Source: Aurantiochytrium sp. KH105 (lineage: Eukaryota; Sar; Bigyra; Thraustochytrida; Thraustochytriidae). From it: 64,000 bases of DNA. Under the pieces are notes generated by a model. The model ran no database searches and was not told where the DNA came from. It saw only the letters and a list, made by a program, of their open reading frames with translations. Below are positions 6,622 through 44,705 of this stretch, piece after piece. The DNA is taken from contig BGKB01000006.1 of the NCBI GenBank assembly GCA_003116975.1, forward strand, positions 248,001 to 312,000, written 5' to 3'. The stretch's first letter is position 1. Each line of letters opens with the position of its first letter. The position numbers and the translations under genes are program-made.

Positions 6622-9600
6622 CTACGTTGACTGATGCTCGTCCATGTAGAGCTCCAGATGCTTGTTCAGATAGTCTTCGCCTTCGGAAAGAACCCATGTG
6701 AGAGCGGCGTCCACGTTTACATTGCCGAATTCTTCGTCGCGCGACTCCGTCAGTGCATGTCGCAAAAGCCCACGCGGGAAAGTTGGGCACATGTCAATCA
6801 TTGACTGCAGCGCGTGCGCAAAGTCCAATTGCCCAGCGTCGAGCGCGCTCGCTCCGGCCTGGCCTGTTGCGCTATCGGCGCCGACACCGCCCCCAAGGTT
6901 TTCTTCGGCCAGAGCAGCCTCCGCGTTCAGTGTCGCCGAACTCCCCATCTCTCCAGATTTGGCATCGAGCTTGCTTGTCCAACCTGTCGCTGCGAGCGCT
7001 TCGCTCCCCACAGACGCGTTCCCAATAATCTTGCTGCTTGGCTCTCCACCCTGTGCATCTTCGAATGATGCACTATGGACGCCTGCGGCAGCGTCACCAG
7101 CAGTTCCCGCGTCTGTATCCTCGGCACTTAGAAGCTTCACATGCTCAAGCCGCTCCTGCTCCTTGGCGCGAAGTTCCTTCAGTCGCTCCTCTCTCTCGCT
7201 ATACAGAGCGTCGACCTCTTCACTTGGAAGCTTATCGAGCTCCTCGCGAAGATCCGAGGCAAACTTGGAGATTGACTTGAGGTGGCTCTTGGTGTCTGAA
7301 AGCTTCGCCTCCTCAACCCAGCGATCCACGGTCGCCAAAATGTGGTGCTTCTTGATACGAAAATGCTCTTGGATAAGAGTCTCAAAGCCTGGCGGCGGAT
7401 TGCGCAGCTGACTCAGCATCGCGTGTTGCAGCGTTGCCACACGCAGCCGTTCGTAGCCACCATTGGAATGAATTCGTTTTTGCAGCTCGCCTTGTTCCGT
7501 CCCCCATTGAGACTCCACGCCTGGCTCGTTGAAATACGGGAATTCTGACCCGAGAATGGCGCTTTGGATCGAGACCAGTACTTGCCACAATGACGAGTTC
7601 TTTGTCCAGTTCTCGCTTCCGGTCGCGCCGCCACGCCATGTACCAAGCAGAGACAAACACACCTTGCCATTGTTGTACAAGTTCGGGTTAAAGCGTACGG
7701 ACCCGCCTCCGGTGGTCATGAGATTCATCTTTGGCGGTTCCGAAGGGTACTCGGGAGGAAAGTAAATGTCGAACTGGAAACATCCGCTGTCGTACGGCGT
7801 GTTATCGGGCGCGAAGATGATACATTGCGCCACGAACGGTCGTTTCTGGTCCACACGCAGGGCTATAGACGAGTTGAAGTGAAGAGGAAGCGACTTGCGC
7901 AGCGCCTTGAGCTCGCGATTCAGTCTGCGCATACGCGTTTGGCTCACCTTGCCCTTGATGTCGTCCTCGATGTGCGTGCGGTAGTGGTGGTTGTATCGCC
8001 CATCTTCATCTGCCATTTCACGGCTGCCAAACAGCTCAGGGCGCAGGGCCGCCTCGTAGATCTGGTTCAGTTGACGCGTAAAGACCGCCTCGCTCTCGTC
8101 GAGGTCCAAAGTGTCCTTCTCAGTCGAGGCGCCATCCTTCGGGCCGTCCTTCGCGGCGTCGCTCACTATGCCCTGTTCCGCTTCTTCCGCATTAGTTGCA
8201 TCTTCTCCTGGGTTATTGCCGGCCTTGGCCGCCTTTTCCTGCTCGAGAGCCTGCTTCGCCTCCTCGGCGGCGCGCTCCCTCTCATGAAATGCGTCGACGC
8301 TTTTCTTCACAGCACCCGCAACGGTGTGCACCATATCTTTAAAGGGTAGATCACAGATATCTGCAAGGAGCGATCTTCCCTCGCTCTTCGCCTCATCACC
8401 CCCAGACTTTACGCGGCTAGCCCCTTGCAGTTCCTGAAAGGAGTGGGCCATATCCTGATGCGAGGTTTCGCTCTGCAGATTGGCGTCGCTCGTTTCGCCC
8501 GTCACGTCTTCATCGTCCTCGATCGCCAACAAACCTTCCTCCGTCTCATCCTCCTCGCTGAGGTCCTCGACAAGGTCCTCAAGTTCCTCCATGAGCTGCT
8601 GAACGGACCTGTACACCCCTTCCACAGGACACAGGATTCGCGCAAGTTGTGGGTGTTGAGCCAGCACGTAGACAAAACGCAGCAACGCACGATAAAGCAC
8701 CAAATTATCGAGGACCACCTTGATCGTGTTGCCAAAAAGAAATGACATGAGCACACGAAGCAAGCATGACGCTTCGAGCACCTCAGCGACTTCTGCCCAA
8801 ACGTCGTCATCAAGAGTATCGTCCGCGTCCTTGGAGGTGTTCAGGAAGCTCGTCAATACACTCATGGTCGCAAGTGTGCGATCCGTCTTCTCCTGTTGCT
8901 GCTTCTCGCGCATGCGGTCCGATACGGACGTGTCCGTAGATCCATAACCATATCCGGGCGCCCAGAGAGACTTATCTGACTCCTTCGATGACTTGAAGGG
9001 TTTCTCTTTCACAAAGTCCCGAATCTTGGAGGTGATCCTGGACGGCAACGCCCGCACCGTCGCGGACGCAGACGGCGAGGAGGACGACTCGGCGTCATTG
9101 TCCGCGCCAGCGTTGCCCGTACGTCCCGCGGTAGTCGATGCCTGCGTTGTGAACGGGTCTGCGAAGCGAGCTGCTCGCTCCGGATCCCGCGGCTCTTCCG
9201 CTTGAATTCGCCCAATGCGGAGAAGAATACTGTCAAGCACTCCGTGCTGAACAGCCCACTTCCGGGACTCGGCAGCTGCCTTCCCTCTTGCGCGCGCAAA
9301 GTGCTTGCTCAGAGCAACAAAGAGCGCGCCGTCCGGATCTTCGAGAGCTTGCTCGGATGGCTCGATGCGACCACGCTTATCATCTGAAAGATGCGCCGCA
9401 TCCACGCCCAACAGCGCAAACAAGAGACCCATGCAGTCTTTGTCGTTCACAAACGTGCGATCAAAGTTCACCATGCCAAAGTAAACTTGCAGCCGGTCAA
9501 GCCACGAGGCCCACGTTACAGCGCGAGTCTCAACTGGCCCTGTCGCGATCGTGTCAATCGGAACAGACTTGGCTGCCAGTGCCGCGCGCGACTCTTCTGT

Positions 9601-27456: not shown

Positions 27457-28164
27457 GATGCCTCTGCCGGTGGTCTAGATCTCCTGTCTGCTTGTGGAAA
27501 TGCCCCACGGCTGTCTTTCCCCTTTTTCTTCGCCCTCCGCGACCTTTTTGCCCCCGGGGTCTCCGCGTCGGTGCCGCAGAGAATTCCGTGCTCTCTCTCC
27601 TGCTGGTCTCCCTGCTCGCCCTCGCCCCGTCCTCGTCGTCGCCGCGCTCGCGCGGGCTGTCTGTTTCCCTGGTCTCGACGTTGGGCCCAGCCTCGCTCGG
27701 ATCGCGCCCAGTCGCTCAATGAATCTCAATCTATCCACCCGCCGAGCCTCGCGCGGNNNNNNNNNNNNNNNNNNNNNNNNNNNNNNNNNNNNNNNNNNNN
27801 NNNNNNNNNNNNNNNNNNNNNNNNNNNNNNNNNNNNNNNNNNNNNNNNNNNNNNNNNNNNNNNNNNNNNNNNNNNNNNNNNNNNNNNNNNNNNNNNNNNN
27901 NNNNGGGGGCCGCGATCCGGTCCCGTATCGCGCGCCACCCCGGCCGCCGCCGCCTGCTTGCGAAGGCGCGGACCCGCCGCCGCGGGGGCGGGATACGGGA
28001 CCGCGCGCGCGACAGGATACGCCGCGGGAGAACGACGAGCAGACGGGCAACGACCGCGCGGACGGAGCGCGGCGAAGGCACGGCGGCGGGCGGGCGGGCG
28101 GGCGAGGAGGGGCAGGGGCAGGGGCAGCAGCAGCAGCAGCAGCAGCAGCTGCAGCGCAGCGCGG
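27457..28164. other. Divergent spacer of giant E2 and CNOT9 genes, holding an assembly gap
   Basis: The spacer is GC-rich and includes (GGCG)n-like sequence near 28081-28105 and a CAG run near 28124-28150 in the CNOT9 leader. Both promoters must lie here, but the gap hides part of it. No gene is seen. Confidence 0.7.
27757..27904. other. Assembly gap (148 N)
   Basis: A run of N from 27757 to 27904, flanked by very GC-rich sequence on both sides. Any frame crossing it is not interpretable. Confidence 1.
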
Positions 28165-34372: not shown

Positions 34373-37300
34373 TCATCCCCTTGCACCAAGCTTGCGTGTA
34401 TCGCGTTGATCGTGGTCGCGGTTCCAGAATGAGTAAACAATGTATGAGAAAAGTCCGAGCACGAGCAGGACCACCGCCGTCACAGCAATAGTCATGGACT
34501 CCTCGCGTGGAGTGAGAGGAGGTTCCTCTACGTACACGTGAATGTACGTCTTCAGATCACAGAAGCTAATTGGATCCTGAATGGTCACTTCGAAATGATA
34601 CAATCCCTCCCCAACGAATAAAATTGCATCGTACTCGAACGGATTGAAGCCAAACGTCTCGATTGTTGATGTTACACCGCACTCCGTGGTGTCGTAGGCA
34701 CTGGCATTCGTGCAAAAATCTTGCCGCCCATTGACATCGCGTATCTGATACGTGGAGTTGAGCGCGCGCGTCTCTTCAGACCCTAATACAAACGACGGAA
34801 CAAAGTATTCCGAGTACAGCATTCTTTGGACCTTTACAATGCAATCTGAGACCTCGGGCCCGCGCTTCGCATCATCAAGATCGTCAAATCTAGCGCAGTC
34901 ACAGTCAGAGTGGTCACTCGCATTCGCACACAACCCAAACTGCGCCGAATCCCGGGAAACTTGGTACCAGTTCATGTACAGAGGCTGCGAGGGGTCAGCG
35001 TTATACACATTTGGAGAGAGTGGGATACCCTTGCCACGCTCGGAAGGTGGTCGGTAATTCACGGGAAGGTCTATGTACTCGGCGTCTTCACCCGGCACGT
35101 AGAGGAAATCCTTTGTCAACGGACATGCAATAAAGAGCCGTGCTACAGACTCAAAATTGTTGGGATCGCATGCCAGATTGACATTTGTGCCACTCATGAG
35201 TACCGTCGTGACACTTGAGGTAATCACCCCACTCGGTTCAACGAGCACCAAAAAGGAGTGCGTGCCGCTGGTAAAGTCCGTTGTAAAGTCCTCACTCGGG
35301 TGCACGCTCTCGTACGTCGCAAATGTTGCAGAGGTGATTTTCGTGGACCACGCTGTCGGCGAAAATCCTGGATCAATAAAGTGATGAACATGCGCAGTCG
35401 TGAGCGATGGTCTCACGCGCAAGATTCGAATCAGATCCTCATCCCCTGAAGCCATCCAAAACGAGTTGTCACCTTGGACCGACTCCACCGCTCGATTCTT
35501 CTCTGCATGCTGGTCCGCGATAAGTCCACCCCAGTAAAAGATATCATACTTGTCAAGCGTCCGCACCGATGGACTTGAGATGGACGGGTAGATCTGCAAA
35601 GCAGGCAAAGGGCACGAGGGAAAACGTAGCCGTAAATTGGCAGAGGCGAGCGTTGTCCACTGCGAGCTTCCAATCAGAACTTGCGTGCTGGCGTCCGCGG
35701 TCGGAGGAAACTCTCCAAACGCGCAATATGCAATACCGGCGGTGTCATTCGTGACGCCAGAGAGAAGCGCCAGCGTCACACTGCCTTGTCTCGCAGAGAG
35801 AAAGATCGTTCTGCCGGCTGTAAGCGATGCTAAACAAGAGTTCTCCTCGCTGCTTCCGGGCTCTGTTGCGCTCAGCGCAACACTCAGCGGCGGTCTTGTT
35901 TCCCCCTTGTTGCAAACCGACGACAGCGCTTGCGAAGCAGTTATCTGAAGTGCACACGGCTGCTCGTCGATGCTCAACGTCTCTCCAACCTCTGCGGCCG
36001 TTTTGGCAAAGGCTATGCCCGTGCTCAGGTCGACGTCGTAAATGTTCGCTTGCAATGGTTGCACGATCATTCCTTCATGCTGCGTCCGAAAACACTGATC
36101 CATCAACTGACCGCTTGCTGTATCAATGCAGCCGACAGCGATTCTCGACCCGTGCAAAGAAGAGATGACCCATTGAAAATCATCTGCGCGCTCCGAGAAC
36201 ACCTCGAACTGAAGTTTGATGGGGACATCAAAGCGCTCAACTTGGCCCAAGGCGGATCGCCGGACCCAGTACGGTACGTTATCAGCGCTCAGCTGCACCA
36301 GCTTGTCAGTGCCGAGGCTATTGTAGAGTGGAATGAGACCCTTGACGTGAATTTTGCCAAAGAATACACGCCCGCGTGTTGTTTGCACCAAAAAGGCGCC
36401 TTTACTTGCTGAGCTAATTGGACAACCCACGATTTCCTCGTCGTCATCAAGCTGAAGAACAGGATCAAAGTGATGAGCGCCATCGAAGCTGATCCAGAGG
36501 CTGTGGCCGTAGGCAAAGACTCCCAGACCAGTATTGTGTGCGCACATACCACGAAGCTCCGCACCGTCGGGAAATACGTAACCCATGTTTGGCTTCAAAA
36601 CGGTGCTACCATCGTCAAGCTCTTCGTAACACATTGGCTTCTCCATTGGAGTTGCCTCGCCATCGCACATCGTGCCCACGAAGTTAATGTGGGGCTCCGA
36701 ATTGGATCGATAGAGCATGAGCACCATACGTGGTTCGACGGTGCAATACATGGCAGAGAGAAGCTCGTGCCCATCACGAGACACAAAAGGTTCGACCAAA
36801 TACTGGAGATTCTTGAATGTAAATGCCTTTCCGCCCGTCAACTCGTCTGTCGTGACCTCAAGCAGCTCAGCCACGCTATCCTGTTTCAAGAAAACACGTC
36901 GATGCAAGCTGTGCGATTCAACTGAGGTCGATGATGGGGAGAGCTCTCCATGGCAGTGAGTACCCGCGGTAATTCGCCATGACCCTGTTCGAGGTAGGAT
37001 GTGAGCTTGGGCGCCGAACGCTCCAAACTCGACGGCCACAAGTCCCTCCGTTGTGGTCAGTAGAACAGTGTCGTCGGCGAGAAATGCAAGATCCATCACG
37101 GCAAGGTTTCCACACTCGAGCACCTGGCAAAGCTGCTGGCTTGTATAAACACCTTCAGTCCATGCCGGTATCGATCCCACATCAAATGCACGAAAGTTGC
37201 GCATTGCGTCATACGAAATGGTGATTGTCCCTGGCACATTTGCATCGTTGTCGATTGTTGCCATTACGTTTGGCATGCATGGCAGGCTCGCGGTCAAGTG

Positions 37301-38305
37301 CATCACAGCTCTTGATGCAGGAAGCGAAAGAGCCATTGGAGCATACGATGTATTGCGCGTCACACCTATGAAAGTTTTCGCGAGTGGACTCACGATGACT
37401 GGAACTTTTGTGGCAAGGACACCGCACTCCCCGTTCAGCGCAATGTGCGACGAAGATTCAACGCTCAACCAAGCTGATCCCGTCCACTCCTTTGCCTGAA
37501 GCTCAATCAGCCACCCCCCTTCAACAGGTTGCGCTCTCGTGCACTGCTCATTGACTTCGTCGTCTTCATTCCAACACTCGAACGTTTCGTTGTACAAGAA
37601 GCCTGCGACAGTAAGGGCTTCTTCAGAACGTATCCGGACGATTGGCGCTTCCCCAATGCTGAGAAGCTCGCGGGTTATCTCGTCGTCTTCGATTCCCATC
37701 ATTACTGTCTCGCCCGCACTTCGCAGGAACCGGGCTGCGAGGCGCAAGGTGCCCGTCGAACTCGGAACCAGTGTGTCGCCCTCCACTGGGTAAAATTCGA
37801 TGCAGTTTTGTGCTTTTTCCTCCACGTGAACCTCTGAAATAAATTCGTCTTCAAGCGTCCCATTGATGCTGTACAGCTGTGCTGTCACCTCAAATGTTCC
37901 AGCTTGAGTGAAGGTCGAGGTCAAAGTGCCATCATTTTCAGAGTTAATGGCAGTCGCATTGCCAACAAGCGTTTCGCCAATGAAGAGCGAGACGAAAAGC
38001 AACTCATCTACGTCTACACTGCTACTTGCGGTATCAACCACCCAATGGACGAGTTCATCGACGTGCAAGCTAGACCTCTGACTTGATTTGTGTGCTGTCG
38101 CATATATTCCCGAGATCTGCGCTGCGATTGCCATTTGCATGTGCAGACCAAAGACCATCACAAGAGCCCCAAGCGCTGCTGTAGTCCATGGCCTCGTCGC
38201 TTTCTCATGAATCCTCGCATTCTTGCCTTCCCCGCGCCGCTGCTCGCACCTCGAGCAAGTTTTCTCTGGAGTCCTCCCCGGGGCTCCTCGTCGCGATGCT
38301 CCCAT
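34373..38305 (-). CDS. CatSper auxiliary subunit, delta/epsilon type
   Basis: A 1310-aa membrane protein. The C-terminal third matches CATSPERD/CATSPERE: LPVNYRPPSERGKGIPL, NVYNADPSQPLY, a Cys-rich SDCDCARF segment, SFCDLKTYIHVYVEE, then one transmembrane helix (about 1270-1292) and a short basic tail. The N-terminal two thirds are beta-strand-rich, consistent with the extracellular propeller and Ig-like domains of the family. I start at the first ATG in frame (38305); a hydrophobic stretch at about residues 42-62 would be the signal sequence. CatSper subunits sit over the sperm-flagellar calcium channel in animals, and homologues occur in flagellated protists. The frame is uninterrupted. It is convergent with CREG (166 bp between stops) and divergent from the FERM-Sfi1 gene. 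Confidence 0.85.
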   Translation of the reverse strand: MGASRRGAPGRTPEKTCSRCEQRRGEGKNARIHEKATRPWTTAALGALVMVFGLHMQMAIAAQISGIYATAHKSSQRSSLHVDELVHWVVDTASSSVDVDELLFVSLFIGETLVGNATAINSENDGTLTSTFTQAGTFEVTAQLYSINGTLEDEFISEVHVEEKAQNCIEFYPVEGDTLVPSSTGTLRLAARFLRSAGETVMMGIEDDEITRELLSIGEAPIVRIRSEEALTVAGFLYNETFECWNEDDEVNEQCTRAQPVEGGWLIELQAKEWTGSAWLSVESSSHIALNGECGVLATKVPVIVSPLAKTFIGVTRNTSYAPMALSLPASRAVMHLTASLPCMPNVMATIDNDANVPGTITISYDAMRNFRAFDVGSIPAWTEGVYTSQQLCQVLECGNLAVMDLAFLADDTVLLTTTEGLVAVEFGAFGAQAHILPRTGSWRITAGTHCHGELSPSSTSVESHSLHRRVFLKQDSVAELLEVTTDELTGGKAFTFKNLQYLVEPFVSRDGHELLSAMYCTVEPRMVLMLYRSNSEPHINFVGTMCDGEATPMEKPMCYEELDDGSTVLKPNMGYVFPDGAELRGMCAHNTGLGVFAYGHSLWISFDGAHHFDPVLQLDDDEEIVGCPISSASKGAFLVQTTRGRVFFGKIHVKGLIPLYNSLGTDKLVQLSADNVPYWVRRSALGQVERFDVPIKLQFEVFSERADDFQWVISSLHGSRIAVGCIDTASGQLMDQCFRTQHEGMIVQPLQANIYDVDLSTGIAFAKTAAEVGETLSIDEQPCALQITASQALSSVCNKGETRPPLSVALSATEPGSSEENSCLASLTAGRTIFLSARQGSVTLALLSGVTNDTAGIAYCAFGEFPPTADASTQVLIGSSQWTTLASANLRLRFPSCPLPALQIYPSISSPSVRTLDKYDIFYWGGLIADQHAEKNRAVESVQGDNSFWMASGDEDLIRILRVRPSLTTAHVHHFIDPGFSPTAWSTKITSATFATYESVHPSEDFTTDFTSGTHSFLVLVEPSGVITSSVTTVLMSGTNVNLACDPNNFESVARLFIACPLTKDFLYVPGEDAEYIDLPVNYRPPSERGKGIPLSPNVYNADPSQPLYMNWYQVSRDSAQFGLCANASDHSDCDCARFDDLDDAKRGPEVSDCIVKVQRMLYSEYFVPSFVLGSEETRALNSTYQIRDVNGRQDFCTNASAYDTTECGVTSTIETFGFNPFEYDAILFVGEGLYHFEVTIQDPISFCDLKTYIHVYVEEPPLTPREESMTIAVTAVVLLVLGLFSYIVYSFWNRDHDQRDTRKLGARG

Positions 38306-38839
38306 CTCGCTGCGAGCGTCCGTTTCTGCCCCCGCGAACACAGCGCGGACTTGTCACCGCCCCTGCGGGCTTTGCTCTTCGCCCGCCGCTGCAGTAGCTG
38401 CAGCGAAAGCGCGCCAGCGTGAAAACTCTGCGCTTCCGCGCCTCGCGCGCCTGCTCGCGCGCTCGCTGGCTTGATGTTTGCCACGGGCGCTTCCGTTAGA
38501 GGCCGTTGGGCTGGCAGCCTTAGCTGGCCTTATCATAAATAACAGTGTGCCTGATCGATGCGAGAACACCAAGTTGGGACACACGGGTCATCCATCGGCG
38601 ATCGTCCATCGGCATCATTCACAGAGCGAGAGAAACGAAAACGCTTGTCTGCATGCTGCTGGCTGCATGCTTGCCTGTGGCGAGACCAGGCAGGGCCAAG
38701 AGAAAGAGCAAGGTGGACGGGGACGGGCAGCGAGAAACCAGGGCTCTCGGTTGCACAGAGAGAAGACAACCTGTCTTGGCCAACGCGAGGCAAGACAAGG
38801 TGAGGCGCGGCGGAGCTTGTGTTCAAGGCAGTCGCAGCC
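38306..38839. promoter_or_regulatory. 534-bp shared divergent promoter region, CatSper subunit and FERM-Sfi1 gene
   Basis: Two start codons face away from each other across this spacer. It is GC-rich near the CatSper start and more mixed toward 38540-38800. No TATA box or X-box-like palindrome was recognised. Confidence 0.45.
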
Positions 38840-41800
38840 ATGGACGAGGCACGCGTGCTGTTGGGCCCGTGCGGCTGGAGACCTGCGCCGCGCCGCGCGC
38901 CGTCCCAGCTGCAGCGAACGGCGTCAGGTCTTCGAGTGAAAAGGCGGACGAGAAACACCGAGGAGACCGCGGCGACGCGCTGGGCCTACGTTGCGGACGT
39001 GCAGGTGGACCTAGGCTGGGAGGCCTGCGCTCGTCGGCATCGAGATGATGATGGGGATGGAAACATGGATTCGAGAATGTTCGAAATGCAGTACGATATG
39101 GCGTGGATGAGTCACGAGGACGAAAGCAAGATGATGTGCGTCCAGGACGTGCTTGAGGCGGTGTGCGCATTTGTCTATGGACCAGACTACGATAGCGAAG
39201 CGCTTGTGCGCGCAGGGCTCTACCGGGAGAGAGACGGTGTGATGCATCTTTTGCCCCTTGATCTTCGGTTCGTTGATTGCATGCGAGCCTTTTCTGTGGG
39301 CGCAAGGCTCGTCTTTCGCGAGCACGGCTTTGCACAATTGGTGCGGCCCTACATGCAGGCGAGTCCCGACGCCGCACGAGCCGAATTGCAGTTTCGGGAA
39401 GCGCTCTTTCGTCTGCAGCAGGGTCACTTCCGAGCATCAAGCATAATTCATGCTGGTGAACTGCTCGCCTTGGCATATTTAGGCATGACCTGCGAAACAG
39501 ACCTCGTATCCCCGGAAGAGGCTGCCGGTACGCTCTGTGCATTTGCGGCAGACTTCAAGCCGGAGGCCCTTTGCGGTCGCGCGGGTCTTCCCGCGGTTAT
39601 TTCGCAAGCTCTTGGATCCTACGGAGAGCTGACGCAGCGATGGCAAAACGTGGACAGTCGAAAAGCAGCCTTTGTGAGAACGGTCCGGAAACTCTTTGCG
39701 TCACTTTGGGAAGCAGACTTTTTCTGCGCCGATCGAGTACATACAAGTGCGCCACCATTATCTTCGCCAAAACACTCAAAGCAACGTCCAAGGCGAAGAG
39801 CAAGCTCACAGGCAGCGCACGAGCCAGTAGCAGATTGCAATGTTACATTTTCGAGTGCTCCCTTTGTGTCAGCTGAGACGAGCAACCATATCTACAATGG
39901 GGAATCCGACATTAATGCTGCAGGTGCAAGGAGGGAGAAATTCGGGCCCTTGCCGGCTCATGTAGAATGGTTTGCAGTGAACTTTTCAGGGATCCACGTG
40001 TGCATGACACAGGATCGAGGGCATACGTATCCCCTCAAGTCTGTGCAGTCCTGGTCTTCGTCTGCAGATGGAACTGTGCTCGCGCTTGCTATGGCTGACG
40101 GGCGAGTGATTCATCTTGCCGGAATCCCCGACCGTGGTGCCGAGACTGCAGCAACGCTCATTGGCCTCTATGTTGACGCTTCGAACGCTGCTTGGATCTC
40201 TGCAAATGGCATTCGTCGAATCTTGACAACATTGCGCGGCGTGCCTCTTTCCACTGTCTGTCGCACTGATGTCTGTGTTTACTGGCCCGAGATTAACCCC
40301 GCACCGACACAGGAGATGCCACAACACATTAAATCATGCGATGCGCGAGGTCAAAAGGAGAAGACAGAGACAGACAAAAGGAGCTTTGAAACTCTTGCGC
40401 AAGCGCCGGAGGATCCAGCTCTTGCTGCTCAGACTTCAAGCGCAGTTAATTTGCGTCACGCCGAGCCATGTTCACATTCCCCTGGAGTGGCTTCCTCGAG
40501 TGCTGCATCATCGTTTGAGTTAATGGCAGACTGCGAGGCGGAAGAGCTCGTCTTGAGCTCCGTCAGCTCTTCTTCCCTTGCAGAGTCACGTTGGAGTGCG
40601 TTGAGGCAATCAATGCTGAGATCTTTGTTGCGCAAGACGAGACGACAATACCTTGCTCGCTCATTGCGTCTGTGGAGAGCGGCAGCGCAACAGAATGTTC
40701 CGGTGGCTCAGGTTCAGGCAGGGTTTGAGCTACGAGATGCGCGCAGAACAGGCGGTGCAGCACGTCTTTGGATTCTTTGGTGCAGACACATGCAGCGAGG
40801 ACTTACTGCAGCGTGGCGAACATGGACGCAGCAAGCTAGACAGCGCTCTACTCGCACTCACCACACACGGCCAGCCTCACAAGAGCAAATGGATCTGCCT
40901 GCGCCATGTGCAGATGACCAATCTACAACGCCGTCGCCGCACGGTCGAGCGGACATTGCGTTTCGACGCTGGAAGCTGCATACAATGATTTGCAAAAAAG
41001 AGTGGCGAGTGCTTTTCATTGCTTGGGATCGCTGGACAATGAATGCGCAATTGCGACGTCAGCTCCGCCGTTTGAGCCAGGGTTGGTCAACGTGCCGCTT
41101 GAGTACTGCCTTTGCAACATGGAAGACGCAAATCGAGGTCCGAGAGGCTGCGCATTCGTTGCAGGACGTTCTTTCGCGCGCGTTGAATCAAGTGCGCAAG
41201 CAGCGAGGTATGAAGTGCTGGAAGCAGTTTGTCATGGTGCAAATGATGAAGCAAGGTGTTGCGCTGGAGGCGCTGAGTCGTTTTGAGTCGCAGTACGCAC
41301 TGCGTCAGGCCTGGGACCGCTTCTTATGCGCCTACGCATCGAGCAATGCATCCATATTTACCCGCCTCGTACACCAGGCCATGCGGCGCCAGCGTTTGTT
41401 GGCGCGGTTTTCTCAGTGGAAGCGCTTTGTCATGTTTCGCGCCGCAGAGGAGTCATATGCAATCAGCACAATTTCTGACATCTTCTCGCGGTACCTTGCG
41501 CAGTACACAAGCGCCTCTTTACGCGAGCATTTCCATCGCTGGCGACGCTGGACAGCGCTGGTGTCCTTGCAGCATGCGCTTGCATCGGGACTTCGACGCA
41601 CGACACTTCTTCGCGGCTTGAGTGCGTGGAAACGTTTTGTGATGGCCCGGACGATCGAGACCTCATACGGCGCGAGCTTGATCGCTGAGGCGCTCGAGTC
41701 TTGCATGCTTCGCACCAGAACTATGGCGCTGACACGATGTCTCGCAAGATGGCGCGAGTGGGCGCGAGCTAGCACGATGGACGTGACGCTCTCGACTGTA

Positions 41801-42319
41801 ATGGATAGATTGCTAAAGCGCAGAGGTTTTGCAGCGTGGAAACGTTTCGACATGCTTCGCACAATGGAGTGCACGTGGGCGCTCGATCGCATGGCAGAAT
41901 TCTATCTCAAGCACTGTCATAATGATCAAGTACGTTACGCATTTTCAGCCTGGCGGCAATATGCTGCTGCTGCTGCTGCTGCTTCTCACGGAAGCGCAGG
42001 AATCTCGATGACAAAGTATGATCGTTGTGGTCCAGCACCGACCGCCGAGCATGGATTCCGCGAGAATAAGACGCCTGAACGGGCCACGATTACTGTTGAG
42101 GAGCAGGACGGTGTCGAGCTTGAAGTCAAGCAGGCCGATGTTTCCTCGCCTTCGCTTCTGGTCGTGTCCGCCTCTACTTCGGCAACGTCCACAGCCGAGC
42201 GCGACAAGCAGATGTGGGAAATGCGTTTGCGCCTTGCTCGCTGTCAGCAGTCCATCTCGCGACTCGAGCATGCGTGTCGCCACGATCTTCGTCTTGCGCG
42301 CGAGGCGATGCAGCGATAG
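38840..42319 (+). CDS. FERM-like head fused to Sfi1-type centrin-binding repeats
   Basis: 1159 aa from the first ATG (38840; the frame upstream has only GTG). Residues about 100-280 look like FERM N and M lobes (FREALFRLQQGHF...GELLALAYLGM, then TQRWQNVDSRKAAFVRTVRKLF). Residues about 375-450 look like the PH-like FERM C lobe (EWFAVNFSGIHV...YPLKSVQSW). A polar linker follows. Residues about 590-1045 hold at least ten helical units with the Sfi1 pattern LLxxFxxWK/R, such as LLARFSQWKRF, LLRGLSAWKRF, REHFHRWRRW, RRGFAAWKRF and YAFSAWRQY. The C-terminus has a short coiled coil. Sfi1 repeats bind centrin at spindle poles and basal bodies; FERM lobes bind membranes or membrane-protein tails. A basal-body/membrane linker is my inference. 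No intron. Confidence 0.75.
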   Translation: MDEARVLLGPCGWRPAPRRAPSQLQRTASGLRVKRRTRNTEETAATRWAYVADVQVDLGWEACARRHRDDDGDGNMDSRMFEMQYDMAWMSHEDESKMMCVQDVLEAVCAFVYGPDYDSEALVRAGLYRERDGVMHLLPLDLRFVDCMRAFSVGARLVFREHGFAQLVRPYMQASPDAARAELQFREALFRLQQGHFRASSIIHAGELLALAYLGMTCETDLVSPEEAAGTLCAFAADFKPEALCGRAGLPAVISQALGSYGELTQRWQNVDSRKAAFVRTVRKLFASLWEADFFCADRVHTSAPPLSSPKHSKQRPRRRASSQAAHEPVADCNVTFSSAPFVSAETSNHIYNGESDINAAGARREKFGPLPAHVEWFAVNFSGIHVCMTQDRGHTYPLKSVQSWSSSADGTVLALAMADGRVIHLAGIPDRGAETAATLIGLYVDASNAAWISANGIRRILTTLRGVPLSTVCRTDVCVYWPEINPAPTQEMPQHIKSCDARGQKEKTETDKRSFETLAQAPEDPALAAQTSSAVNLRHAEPCSHSPGVASSSAASSFELMADCEAEELVLSSVSSSSLAESRWSALRQSMLRSLLRKTRRQYLARSLRLWRAAAQQNVPVAQVQAGFELRDARRTGGAARLWILWCRHMQRGLTAAWRTWTQQARQRSTRTHHTRPASQEQMDLPAPCADDQSTTPSPHGRADIAFRRWKLHTMICKKEWRVLFIAWDRWTMNAQLRRQLRRLSQGWSTCRLSTAFATWKTQIEVREAAHSLQDVLSRALNQVRKQRGMKCWKQFVMVQMMKQGVALEALSRFESQYALRQAWDRFLCAYASSNASIFTRLVHQAMRRQRLLARFSQWKRFVMFRAAEESYAISTISDIFSRYLAQYTSASLREHFHRWRRWTALVSLQHALASGLRRTTLLRGLSAWKRFVMARTIETSYGASLIAEALESCMLRTRTMALTRCLARWREWARASTMDVTLSTVMDRLLKRRGFAAWKRFDMLRTMECTWALDRMAEFYLKHCHNDQVRYAFSAWRQYAAAAAAASHGSAGISMTKYDRCGPAPTAEHGFRENKTPERATITVEEQDGVELEVKQADVSSPSLLVVSASTSATSTAERDKQMWEMRLRLARCQQSISRLEHACRHDLRLAREAMQR

Positions 42320-42578
42320 CTACTAACACAGTAATAACTAATCCTGACCTCAACTTGAGCGCCGCCAGACCCGCTATACTCCCCGCAATGCCACTGCTTG
42401 CAAGTTGACGATGCCAATCGTTTTACATTCACAATGATCGCATGACCCACTCGCTCACACACTCGCAGGAGATGACTTTTCCAAGTCGATCGATGGCTGA
42501 TCATGGGAAAGAAACACTTGCGCAAACCGTGATCGAGCATCGAAAGGGCTGCGGCATGGCCGTCGTGGAGACAGCAGC

Positions 42579-44705
42579 ATGACAGGGCGGCGGCGCGTAC
42601 GGCGCGAGATCCGCACATTGTCCGAGACGCAGCGGCAGGCGTACTTTGCGGCGCTGCGAACCATGCGAACAACGTCCATGGCCGCCGGGCAGCGACGCTT
42701 TGGGGCAGCTTATCGCTCGCACGCGTACATGCTGCTCAAACACGCCACCTCGGCGCTGCACCCATGTGTGGACCAAGGTCACGACATTGAAAATCAAATG
42801 ACCTTTCACCGGGCTCTGCTGCTTGAAGTTGAGGCGTCGGTGCTGGCGATCGTGTCAACGCTGGAGCCCAATGTCACGCTTGGGGCGCTGCCATACTGGG
42901 ACTTTGCGACAGATATTGCTCAGACAGGAAACTGGTGGTCAGGCTCGCTATGGAAGTACTGGGGTTCGCCTTTTGGAGATCCGGACAACGACTATTGCAT
43001 CGAAGATCCCGTCTTTGAGAGCAAAGTGGAGCGCGGCATGGTGCCGGAACTTCAACCGCTCATGAACGAGATCTTTGGCATGGACGCAGAGAGCGATGGC
43101 GACTTCGTGATGGGGAATGGGCATGGGTGGTGGCGTAGTCCGTGGAACCAAGCGCAGTGTCCGGGGCTTGCTCGAAATCCTGGCTGGGTTCTAGGAGCAC
43201 CGACGGCGATCGGTTCGACATTTAGAGACTGTCAGGGTGCCAGTAATTATACCGTTTTCATGATGTGCGTTCAAGGTCGCGGGTTTACGCGTCAGGGACC
43301 AGACATTGGTCCTCACAATGCGCCGCACGTAAGCATGGGTACCTTTTACGACGAAGGGGTGGGCGATGCGGTGTTCGTGACAATGCTGGCTTTCCTTTCA
43401 CTGGGAACCTTCGCTTCCGCTTGCATGTCAGTTCTCTGCTTTGGCAAGCTCCGCGCCGAGGCGAAAGGGACTGAAATGCATTGGCCCTCGCGGTGGTCGT
43501 GGATGCTGTCCGTTCTTTTGTCGCTGAGCATTATCGGATGCTTTGCAGCACCGGCGGTGCACGAGGCTGTTGTCGGTGTTTCTGGCGCATCGCTGCACGT
43601 GCGTTGGCTCCGCGAGACATTTAAGCGGCAAAGTATTGATTTCAAGGGTACAGAATGGCGCAGTGGGGCTCTTCAGTGTCCGGCTTCTGGAACGTGTGTC
43701 GAAGGGGAACGCTGTGCGTGTTCGTTGAATCGATACGAGTGCGGCTTTGTGGGCGCAGACTTTTGGGATGGAGCCTTTTCGTTGAACGAGAACTACTTTT
43801 ACAGCATTCATGCCTTTACAGACCTGCTGCATCTCAGGTGGGCTGCTCAACGTAGCGAAGCGCCAATCCTTGCGAACAATTTTGGTGGATTTCCTCTCGT
43901 TGGCAGGTGCCCTGGGATGGCTCTTGAGGATGACATCTCTGAAGAGTTTTGCTTTTCCAGCAACGATATCGGAGTCTCAAATCTGACAGGCAGCGGGGAC
44001 GCGAGCACGCCAGCACATTCTGCCAACCCAAAGGAGCCTTGTCTCACACATGCCGATATTCTCGCCCTCAACAGTCCTTCACTACATGACGACCGGGCTT
44101 TGCTTCCTTATACCTATGATGTTCTCGTTGCTGACGCCGTGTGGCGGCCAATCGAGCCTACGCTCGAGTGCACCAAAGAAATTGCCTGCGACCGCTCGGG
44201 AAATGAACGAAATGCGTCATTGCTTCGAGACGTGCGCGCCCACGGAGACTTTGTCTGCATGCCAAGTGCGGAAATCTTTTCGACCAACAGCAGCGAAGAT
44301 CTTCGCCATCGGTCTCCTGCTGACTGCAATGTCCCCAAACCTCATGATCCACCTTTGCGTGTGTGTAGTTGCAAAGCAGAGATCTTTCGAGCCCGCACGC
44401 TGGAGCTGCGAGAGAAGTTGAGGGAGCAAAAACCCAAGAGGGTCTCGCTGGCGCAGGATGTTGGGAGCGGGGCATTATTTCTCGCTCTTTTCATAATGTT
44501 CGCCACGCTTGCGCATCGCTGCTGGAAGCGCCGGCAGATCCAATATGTACTTTTAGATGATGGAGCTGCTGCGGTGATTGAGCTTGGGGAAAGAGAAAAT
44601 CATCAAGTCATGACCGCGTGTGTGGAAAAAGAAAACGAGCAAGGCAAGGCTACGTATGTGTTGACGGCCAGCGATGACAGAAAAGAAAATCTCGCCGAGT
44701 CCTGA
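42579..44705 (+). CDS. Tyrosinase/hemocyanin-type copper protein with internal membrane hairpin
   Basis: 708 aa. The N-terminus begins directly with the tyrosinase core (VRREIRTLSETQRQAYFAAL). Copper A: His68 and His77 (GHDIENQMTFHRALLLEVE), with His55 or His61 as third ligand, then LPYWDF. Copper B: His246 and His250 (PHNAPHV) and His411 (ENYFYSIHAFTDLLHLRW). His250 and His411 are 161 residues apart, against roughly 20-25 in ordinary tyrosinases. The extra about 140 residues hold two hydrophobic helices (about 263-287 and 307-330) and a Cys-rich loop. A third helix (about 635-655) is near the C-terminus. Type-3 copper enzymes oxidise phenols to quinones; activity here is unproven. No signal peptide follows this ATG, so a short upstream exon may be missing. 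Confidence 0.8.
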   Translation: MTGRRRVRREIRTLSETQRQAYFAALRTMRTTSMAAGQRRFGAAYRSHAYMLLKHATSALHPCVDQGHDIENQMTFHRALLLEVEASVLAIVSTLEPNVTLGALPYWDFATDIAQTGNWWSGSLWKYWGSPFGDPDNDYCIEDPVFESKVERGMVPELQPLMNEIFGMDAESDGDFVMGNGHGWWRSPWNQAQCPGLARNPGWVLGAPTAIGSTFRDCQGASNYTVFMMCVQGRGFTRQGPDIGPHNAPHVSMGTFYDEGVGDAVFVTMLAFLSLGTFASACMSVLCFGKLRAEAKGTEMHWPSRWSWMLSVLLSLSIIGCFAAPAVHEAVVGVSGASLHVRWLRETFKRQSIDFKGTEWRSGALQCPASGTCVEGERCACSLNRYECGFVGADFWDGAFSLNENYFYSIHAFTDLLHLRWAAQRSEAPILANNFGGFPLVGRCPGMALEDDISEEFCFSSNDIGVSNLTGSGDASTPAHSANPKEPCLTHADILALNSPSLHDDRALLPYTYDVLVADAVWRPIEPTLECTKEIACDRSGNERNASLLRDVRAHGDFVCMPSAEIFSTNSSEDLRHRSPADCNVPKPHDPPLRVCSCKAEIFRARTLELREKLREQKPKRVSLAQDVGSGALFLALFIMFATLAHRCWKRRQIQYVLLDDGAAAVIELGERENHQVMTACVEKENEQGKATYVLTASDDRKENLAES

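Follow-up and report, generated by a model that had tools for sequence, protein, structure and literature searches.

A tyrosinase-family gene of Aurantiochytrium sp. KH105 with a copper B site split by a predicted membrane hairpin

A single open reading frame in the thraustochytrid Aurantiochytrium sp. KH105 encodes a tyrosinase-family protein in which the second and third histidines of the copper B (CuB) site stand 161 residues apart (H250 to H411), the intervening segment containing a pair of hydrophobic helices followed by a loop rich in Cys. The gene lies at positions 42579 to 44705 on the plus strand of the 64,000-nucleotide stretch of DNA analyzed here (contig BGKB01000006.1, positions 248,001 to 312,000), referred to below as the window, and its 708 codons plus stop are read in one frame without need for an intron. 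The product is probably a membrane-embedded member of the tyrosinase family, a type-3 copper oxidase closing its CuB site across a membrane hairpin.

Tyrosinase family membership and the second haplotype

The Pfam tyrosinase domain (PF00264) matched residues 54 to 260 (expectation value [E], 4e-8; 34.3 bits, above the curated cutoff of 22.6), and this match probably ends at residue 260 owing to the insert in CuB. In an alignment with 34 other tyrosinases (21 from Streptomyces and 13 from viral contigs), six histidines align in order with those of the family, in columns that correspond to the copper ligands of known structures. The copper A (CuA) region (42720 to 42809, plus strand) holds H48 (42720 to 42722), H68 (42780 to 42782), and H77 (42807 to 42809), and the CuB histidines are encoded at 43314 to 43316 (H246), 43326 to 43328 (H250), and 43809 to 43811 (H411). 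Invariant columns of this alignment include H68, H77, H246, N247, H250, F407, H411, and D415, and the H48 column carries the same residue in at least 90% of the 34 aligned tyrosinases. The first part of CuB (43314 to 43343, plus strand) contains H246, N247, and H250, followed by VSMGT (residues 251 to 255), and G254 corresponds to the glycine found four positions after the second CuB histidine in 109 of 110 tyrosinases. Judged by histidines, motif, and score, the protein belongs to the tyrosinase family, with a predicted oxidase activity. The equivalog cutoff of the MelC2 tyrosinase model (NF047834, TyrosinaseMelC2) was not reached (22.6 bits versus 450).

Across the 76-Mb, 367-contig assembly, the tyrosinase family produced six matches, representing three genes in two copies each. 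The assembly also matches PfaA-type PUFA synthase (E, 1.4e-278, although below the curated cutoff and with matches in 11 of 14 control genomes as well), which along with its long intronless genes would fit a thraustochytrid-like protist. The second copy of the split-CuB gene, on contig C15, has the same 708 codons, encodes a protein 96% identical to that of the window, and preserves both the layout and the six ligand histidines. Since a 9,975-base stretch around the C15 copy is 95% identical to the window, we take the two copies to be haplotypes. Differences between them in residues 1 to 250 indicate clear purifying selection (nonsynonymous differences per site [pN], 0.007; synonymous differences per site [pS], 0.113). 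In the approximately 180 bases ahead of the start codon (42400 to 42582), comparison of the haplotypes by eye shows a single substitution and a single 2-base indel. The stop codon (TGA) of a short open frame upstream shares bases with the start codon at 42579 (ATGA), an arrangement that could couple translation.

The CuB spacing and the insert

To place the 161-residue distance in context, the same interval was measured in 110 of 113 tyrosinase loci, leaving out L019, L020, and L102, where the motif was not found by the pattern. These 110 proteins comprise 88 bacterial and 22 viral rows, 79 of them from the scan of genome contigs and nearly all of those from Streptomyces; when genome contigs were searched with the bacterial rows, at least 580 of 594 stretches were relatives and the best 80 were kept, while the viral contigs yielded 22 of 42. 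The interval was 22 residues in 83 proteins, 29 in 17, 45 in 3, and 23 in 2, with one protein each at 26, 27, 28, 39, and 44. The split-CuB protein departs from all 110, falling outside a range of 22 to 45 that reflects the custom of the set, not a chemical requirement. Translations of both other tyrosinase genes of this genome have a spacing of 23 by eye. The viral rows come from 22 IMG/VR viral contigs with tyrosinase-like stretches (L110 to L131), of which 17 have a CuB spacing of 29 and a motif like HNDGHDWVG.

The family pattern continues to G254-T255 and picks up again near residue 392, leaving an insert of about 136 residues (256 to 391; 43344 to 43751, plus strand), where the other rows of the 34-tyrosinase alignment are gapped apart from a few residues. 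A first hydrophobic helix spans residues 270 to 288 (43386 to 43442, plus strand; Kyte-Doolittle mean, 1.93), for which structure models gave a helix at 247 to 294 or 260 to 295. The second (residues 309 to 327; 43503 to 43559, plus strand; Kyte-Doolittle mean, 2.15) was modeled as a helix at 304 to 334 or 304 to 322 and has A-P-A at 324 to 326, near its end. The loop joining the two contains four K/R residues versus two D/E. Farther along lies the Cys-rich loop (residues 367 to 388; 43677 to 43742, plus strand), with five cysteines at 367, 373, 379, 381, and 388. An initial annotation made from the DNA letters had described a 161-residue gap between H250 and H411 flanked by ordinary tyrosinase motifs, the inserted residues including a hydrophobic helix pair and a loop rich in Cys. 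Codon positions bear out the gap, the motifs are present as quoted, and hydropathy and cysteine positions agree with the rest, the extent being better given as residues 256 to 391 (43344 to 43751).

Searches with the insert returned little beyond itself. Residues 251 to 410 had no match in Pfam, and the insert had none in the PDB up to an E of 1. Within its own genome, it found both haplotypes (100% and 98%) and otherwise only hits at an E of 0.1 or worse (the next at 0.2). For insert-bearing relatives, plasmids gave no match to an E of 1, and viral contigs had no stretch fitting the patterns. With the three tyrosinase domains of this genome as queries, 69 genome-contig and 34 viral-contig stretches fit the pattern, none of which was confirmed. 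The homologue check proposed in the initial annotation thus succeeded for the second haplotype, which carries the same insertion, and came back empty for the bacterial, viral, and plasmid collections.

H411 as the probable third CuB ligand

The assignment of H411 was examined with a 26-column profile of the third-histidine motif (CuB-3) from the 110 other tyrosinases. This profile scored 19.0 bits at H411, versus −0.2 at the next site of the protein; no score among 2,000 shuffles equaled it, and the best in a six-frame control of 108,688 residues was 1.3 bits. A profile of the 88 bacterial rows alone gave 23.2 bits at H411. A whole-domain hidden Markov model (HMM) built without the split-CuB protein weakly joined residues 392 to 428 colinearly to model positions 207 to 242; the best of 576 decoys had a sequence E of 0.37. 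An alignment with the genome's own paralogues alone put CuB-3 in the wrong place and was discarded. At the level of sequence, then, the motif at H411 is a clear family match, and the second part of CuB is placed at residues 392 to 425 (43752 to 43853, plus strand) by the profile, the 34-tyrosinase alignment, and a weak HMM match.

In a structure model, the chain follows the tyrosinase fold and the hairpin protrudes from it as a loop, the best structural matches being bacterial tyrosinases. Foldseek with the first model returned nothing at an E of 0.001 or better, the best hit being a Streptomyces tyrosinase at 9.4e-3.

C-terminal region and predicted topology

Downstream of CuB, a Cys-rich region (residues 426 to 627; 43854 to 44459, plus strand) contains N-X-S/T sequons at 468, 545, and 570. 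No Pfam family matched residues 396 to 708 above its cutoff, and residues 425 to 622 had only chance-level matches in the PDB (best E, 0.37). This region is followed by a third hydrophobic helix, absent from the initial annotation, at residues 628 to 646 (44460 to 44516, plus strand; Kyte-Doolittle mean, 1.89; modeled as a helix at 628 to 650) and then by a K/R-rich stretch (four K/R versus two D/E in residues 646 to 664), bringing the predicted membrane helices of the gene to three.

By hydropathy and charge alone, the hairpin leaves residues 1 to 269 and 328 to 627 on one side of the membrane, whichever way it inserts. The protein has 5 N-X-S/T sequons and 24 cysteines, with the sequons and most of the cysteines in the hydrophilic parts, and together with the charges these suggest an outer or lumenal side for the copper domain. 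The lack of a recognizable signal peptide, which like the second haplotype copy does not figure in the initial annotation, points instead to the cytosol or to the N-terminal half being translocated in an unusual way. Inspection by eye of three frames of 42201 to 42640, and of the second haplotype, showed no signal peptide on an upstream exon, though an exon not recognized there could carry one.

Proposed enzyme

In the proposed arrangement, the CuA ligands (H48, H68, and H77) and the first CuB ligands (H246 and H250) would sit on one hydrophilic piece. The chain would then enter the membrane, perhaps as a single long helix, turn, and return, after which it would pass through the Cys-rich loop and supply H411 as the third CuB ligand. 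A hairpin of two helices brings the chain back to its starting side, so H411 would join the other ligands there and the four-helix copper bundle could close with its mouth beside the membrane. The helix near the C terminus may serve as an additional anchor, and such an enzyme would likely oxidize phenols or catechols at the surface of a membrane, either that of the cell or that of a vesicle lumen. The more specific proposal that dicopper ligands on either side of the helix pair come together outside the bilayer, making insertion into the membrane a condition for both site assembly and activity, is tentative, and we put it slightly short of an even chance. In a bolder form, signal peptidase would cut at the A-P-A end of helix 2, yielding an enzyme of two chains that the copper bundle keeps joined.

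Several results weigh against a membrane-embedded oxidase of this kind. Two positions after the second CuB histidine, the protein has S252, versus Trp in 102 of 110 tyrosinases, and usual CuB-3 residues are lost, with EN in place of DP and Ile in place of the first histidine of HH. Against the family match at and beyond H411, a profile of the 22 viral rows alone scored −8.6 at H411, though H411 was still the protein's top site; Pfam did not recognize residues 396 to 708 as tyrosinase; and the HMM was weak for the second half (independent E, 0.91, or 0.034 for residues 396 to 450 as an isolated segment). Confidence in the first model was low, with a mean predicted local distance difference test score of 50.8 and a predicted template modeling score of 0.48. 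As a control fold made without the CuB-3 rows left H411 unplaced, the position of H411 in the model rests on the alignment. The initial annotation had proposed that the hairpin returns the chain so that the copper site could still form, which is supported in part; the two-helix layout agrees as to the side, and the placing of H411 within the modeled site depends on that alignment. No signal peptide was recognizable (top 19-residue hydropathy in the first 60 residues, 0.17, with no dedicated predictor run), and no upstream open reading frame that could supply one was seen by eye in the three frames of 42201 to 42640, or likewise in the second haplotype. No relative with the insert was found in a second species (0 of 110 by CuB spacing), a result that says little about relatives in general, as the collections contained no eukaryotic genomes. 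Measures of coding potential were also shared by other sequence: 189 of 1,581 stop-free wrong-frame or noncoding windows matched the insert's coding score, and on a second measure 81 of the 127 stop-free windows in a wrong frame and 12 of the 82 noncoding ones did so.

Alternative explanations

The main danger to the hairpin is an in-frame intron: splicing, complete or optional, would remove the insert and leave an ordinary tyrosinase as the mature enzyme. This was treated as such because a donor (CAC|GTAAGC, 43329) directly follows H250 and joining it to an acceptor at 43739 restores a spacing of 24; another in-frame acceptor, at 43676, gives 45, so that the joined CuB would have a length known from other tyrosinases. 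The donor GTAAGC shares five of six bases with the GTAAGT of this genome's introns. However, the three introns that served as the standard (a pair from a proteasome gene and a third from a tubulin-like gene) combine GTAAGT or GTACGT donors with CTRAC branch motifs 82 to 115 bases before ACAG acceptors and a pyrimidine fraction of 0.60 to 0.85 over 60 bases. The CT[AG]A[CT] branch motif, present in all three readable introns, is absent from 43329 to 43808, and across the 14 AG sites lying from 43560 to 43810 the pyrimidine fraction reaches no more than 0.58, with values of 0.40 and 0.48 for the best two acceptors, although the lower end of the reference range is close. Splicing would also remove G254, and introns are uncommon here, with nearly the whole domain in one frame for 25 of 32 proteasome-domain and 18 of 23 tubulin-domain matches. 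Between haplotypes, residues 251 to 365 differ by 1.7% with no indels. For comparison, intergenic DNA differs by 7.3% with six indels, exon parts of the proteasome gene by 0.9 to 2.3% with none, and its introns by 7.2% with one indel and 2.3% with two, the last close enough to make this a weak point. Residues 251 to 387 have eight base differences and no indels, with six differences at third positions and five synonymous (a distribution with a probability of roughly 2% under random placement). Codon statistics favor the insert's frame over the other five and thereby a coding insert, and are not decisive. On these observations, splicing is in our judgment improbable.

If the insert is coded, the protein could still be a type-3 copper relative whose catalysis is lost or changed and whose role is, for example, binding or structural. 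The CuB-3 motif without DP and without the first His of its HH pair, the modest Pfam score, the long insert within a metal site, and the large additional C-terminal region all fit such a protein, but the six ligand histidines and N247 are retained, likewise in the second haplotype, and residues 1 to 250 are under purifying selection. We hold such loss or change of catalysis to be unlikely. A different question is whether the same protein is inserted the other way, with the N-terminal half and copper site in the cytosol and the hairpin loop outside. This would accord with the missing signal peptide, with the absence of any strongly hydrophobic helix before residue 270, and with the other tyrosinases of this genome, which by eye also lack signal peptides. 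The net positive charge of the interhelix loop and of the stretch after helix 3, and the sequons and cysteines of the hydrophilic parts, instead fit an outer domain, leaving the cytosolic orientation a minority prospect, though one of some weight.

Comparison with known tyrosinases

The membrane-embedded oxidase proposed here has partial counterparts in several groups. Bacterial tyrosinases of the MelC2 type (Streptomyces and Bacillus/Priestia megaterium), which are soluble enzymes, share the six ligand histidines, the Asn after the first CuB histidine, and the Gly at +4, and they provide the best NCBIfam match of the split-CuB protein (E, 5.3e-5). Unlike it, the bacterial rows have about 285 residues, a CuB spacing of 22 to 23, and no hairpin. 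In the same genome, the other two genes (L001/L002 on contigs C128 and C134 and L003/L004 on C5 and C21) also have a tyrosinase domain above the Pfam cutoff, but with a CuB spacing of 23 by eye and no hairpin. Their tyrosinase domain is fused to PG_binding_1 (peptidoglycan-binding) and matrixin metalloprotease domains, with C2 also in L003; the L001 domain best matches mollusc hemocyanins, and L003 is 47% identical to L001.

Aguilera et al. (2013, PMC3658974) proposed three subclasses of type-3 copper proteins, secreted, cytosolic, and membrane bound (gamma), and reported the gamma subclass, with an N-terminal signal peptide, a Cys-rich region, and a transmembrane helix, from animals only. Mammalian membrane-bound tyrosinases have their anchoring helix at the C terminus (PMC8517187). 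The Cys-rich region and transmembrane helix of animal tyrosinase and TYRP are common to the split-CuB protein, in which, by hydropathy only, residues 628 to 646 would form a transmembrane domain in addition to the hairpin. Animal gamma proteins differ in having a signal peptide (PMC3658974), of which none was found here, and the hairpin lies inside CuB. Human TYRP1 aligns with the bacterial profile as a single segment, so its CuB is unsplit. As these subclasses are described in PMC3658974, the split-CuB protein fits none of the three. Among the titles and abstract openings listed by searches of the open PMC library, which lacks most subscription papers, none mentioned a hairpin of this kind within the CuB of a tyrosinase.

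Other features of the window

Upstream of the tyrosinase gene, 38819 to 42319 (plus strand) encodes a protein of 1,166 amino acids with repeated W-K-R-F-like motifs by eye, possibly Sfi1-like, and no Pfam match at an E of 0.001. On the minus strand, 34376 to 38353 encodes a protein with CATSPERB_C, the C-terminal domain of CatSper beta (E, 1.8e-41), a subunit of the sperm channel. A single open frame of 6,950 codons at 6625 to 27474 (minus strand) has a ubiquitin-conjugating domain in its C-terminal 1,200 codons (E, 2e-22), and may be akin to BIRC6-type giant proteins. A run of N occupies 27757 to 27904.

Implications

If the hairpin is real and the enzyme active, the split-CuB protein would have a metal site whose two parts are linked by a passage into the membrane and back. 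Such a protein would illustrate the freedom with which a soluble enzyme fold can take up membrane segments and would offer a simple system in which membrane insertion is coupled to metal-site assembly. For the type-3 copper proteins, it would represent a membrane form beyond the three subclasses proposed in PMC3658974.
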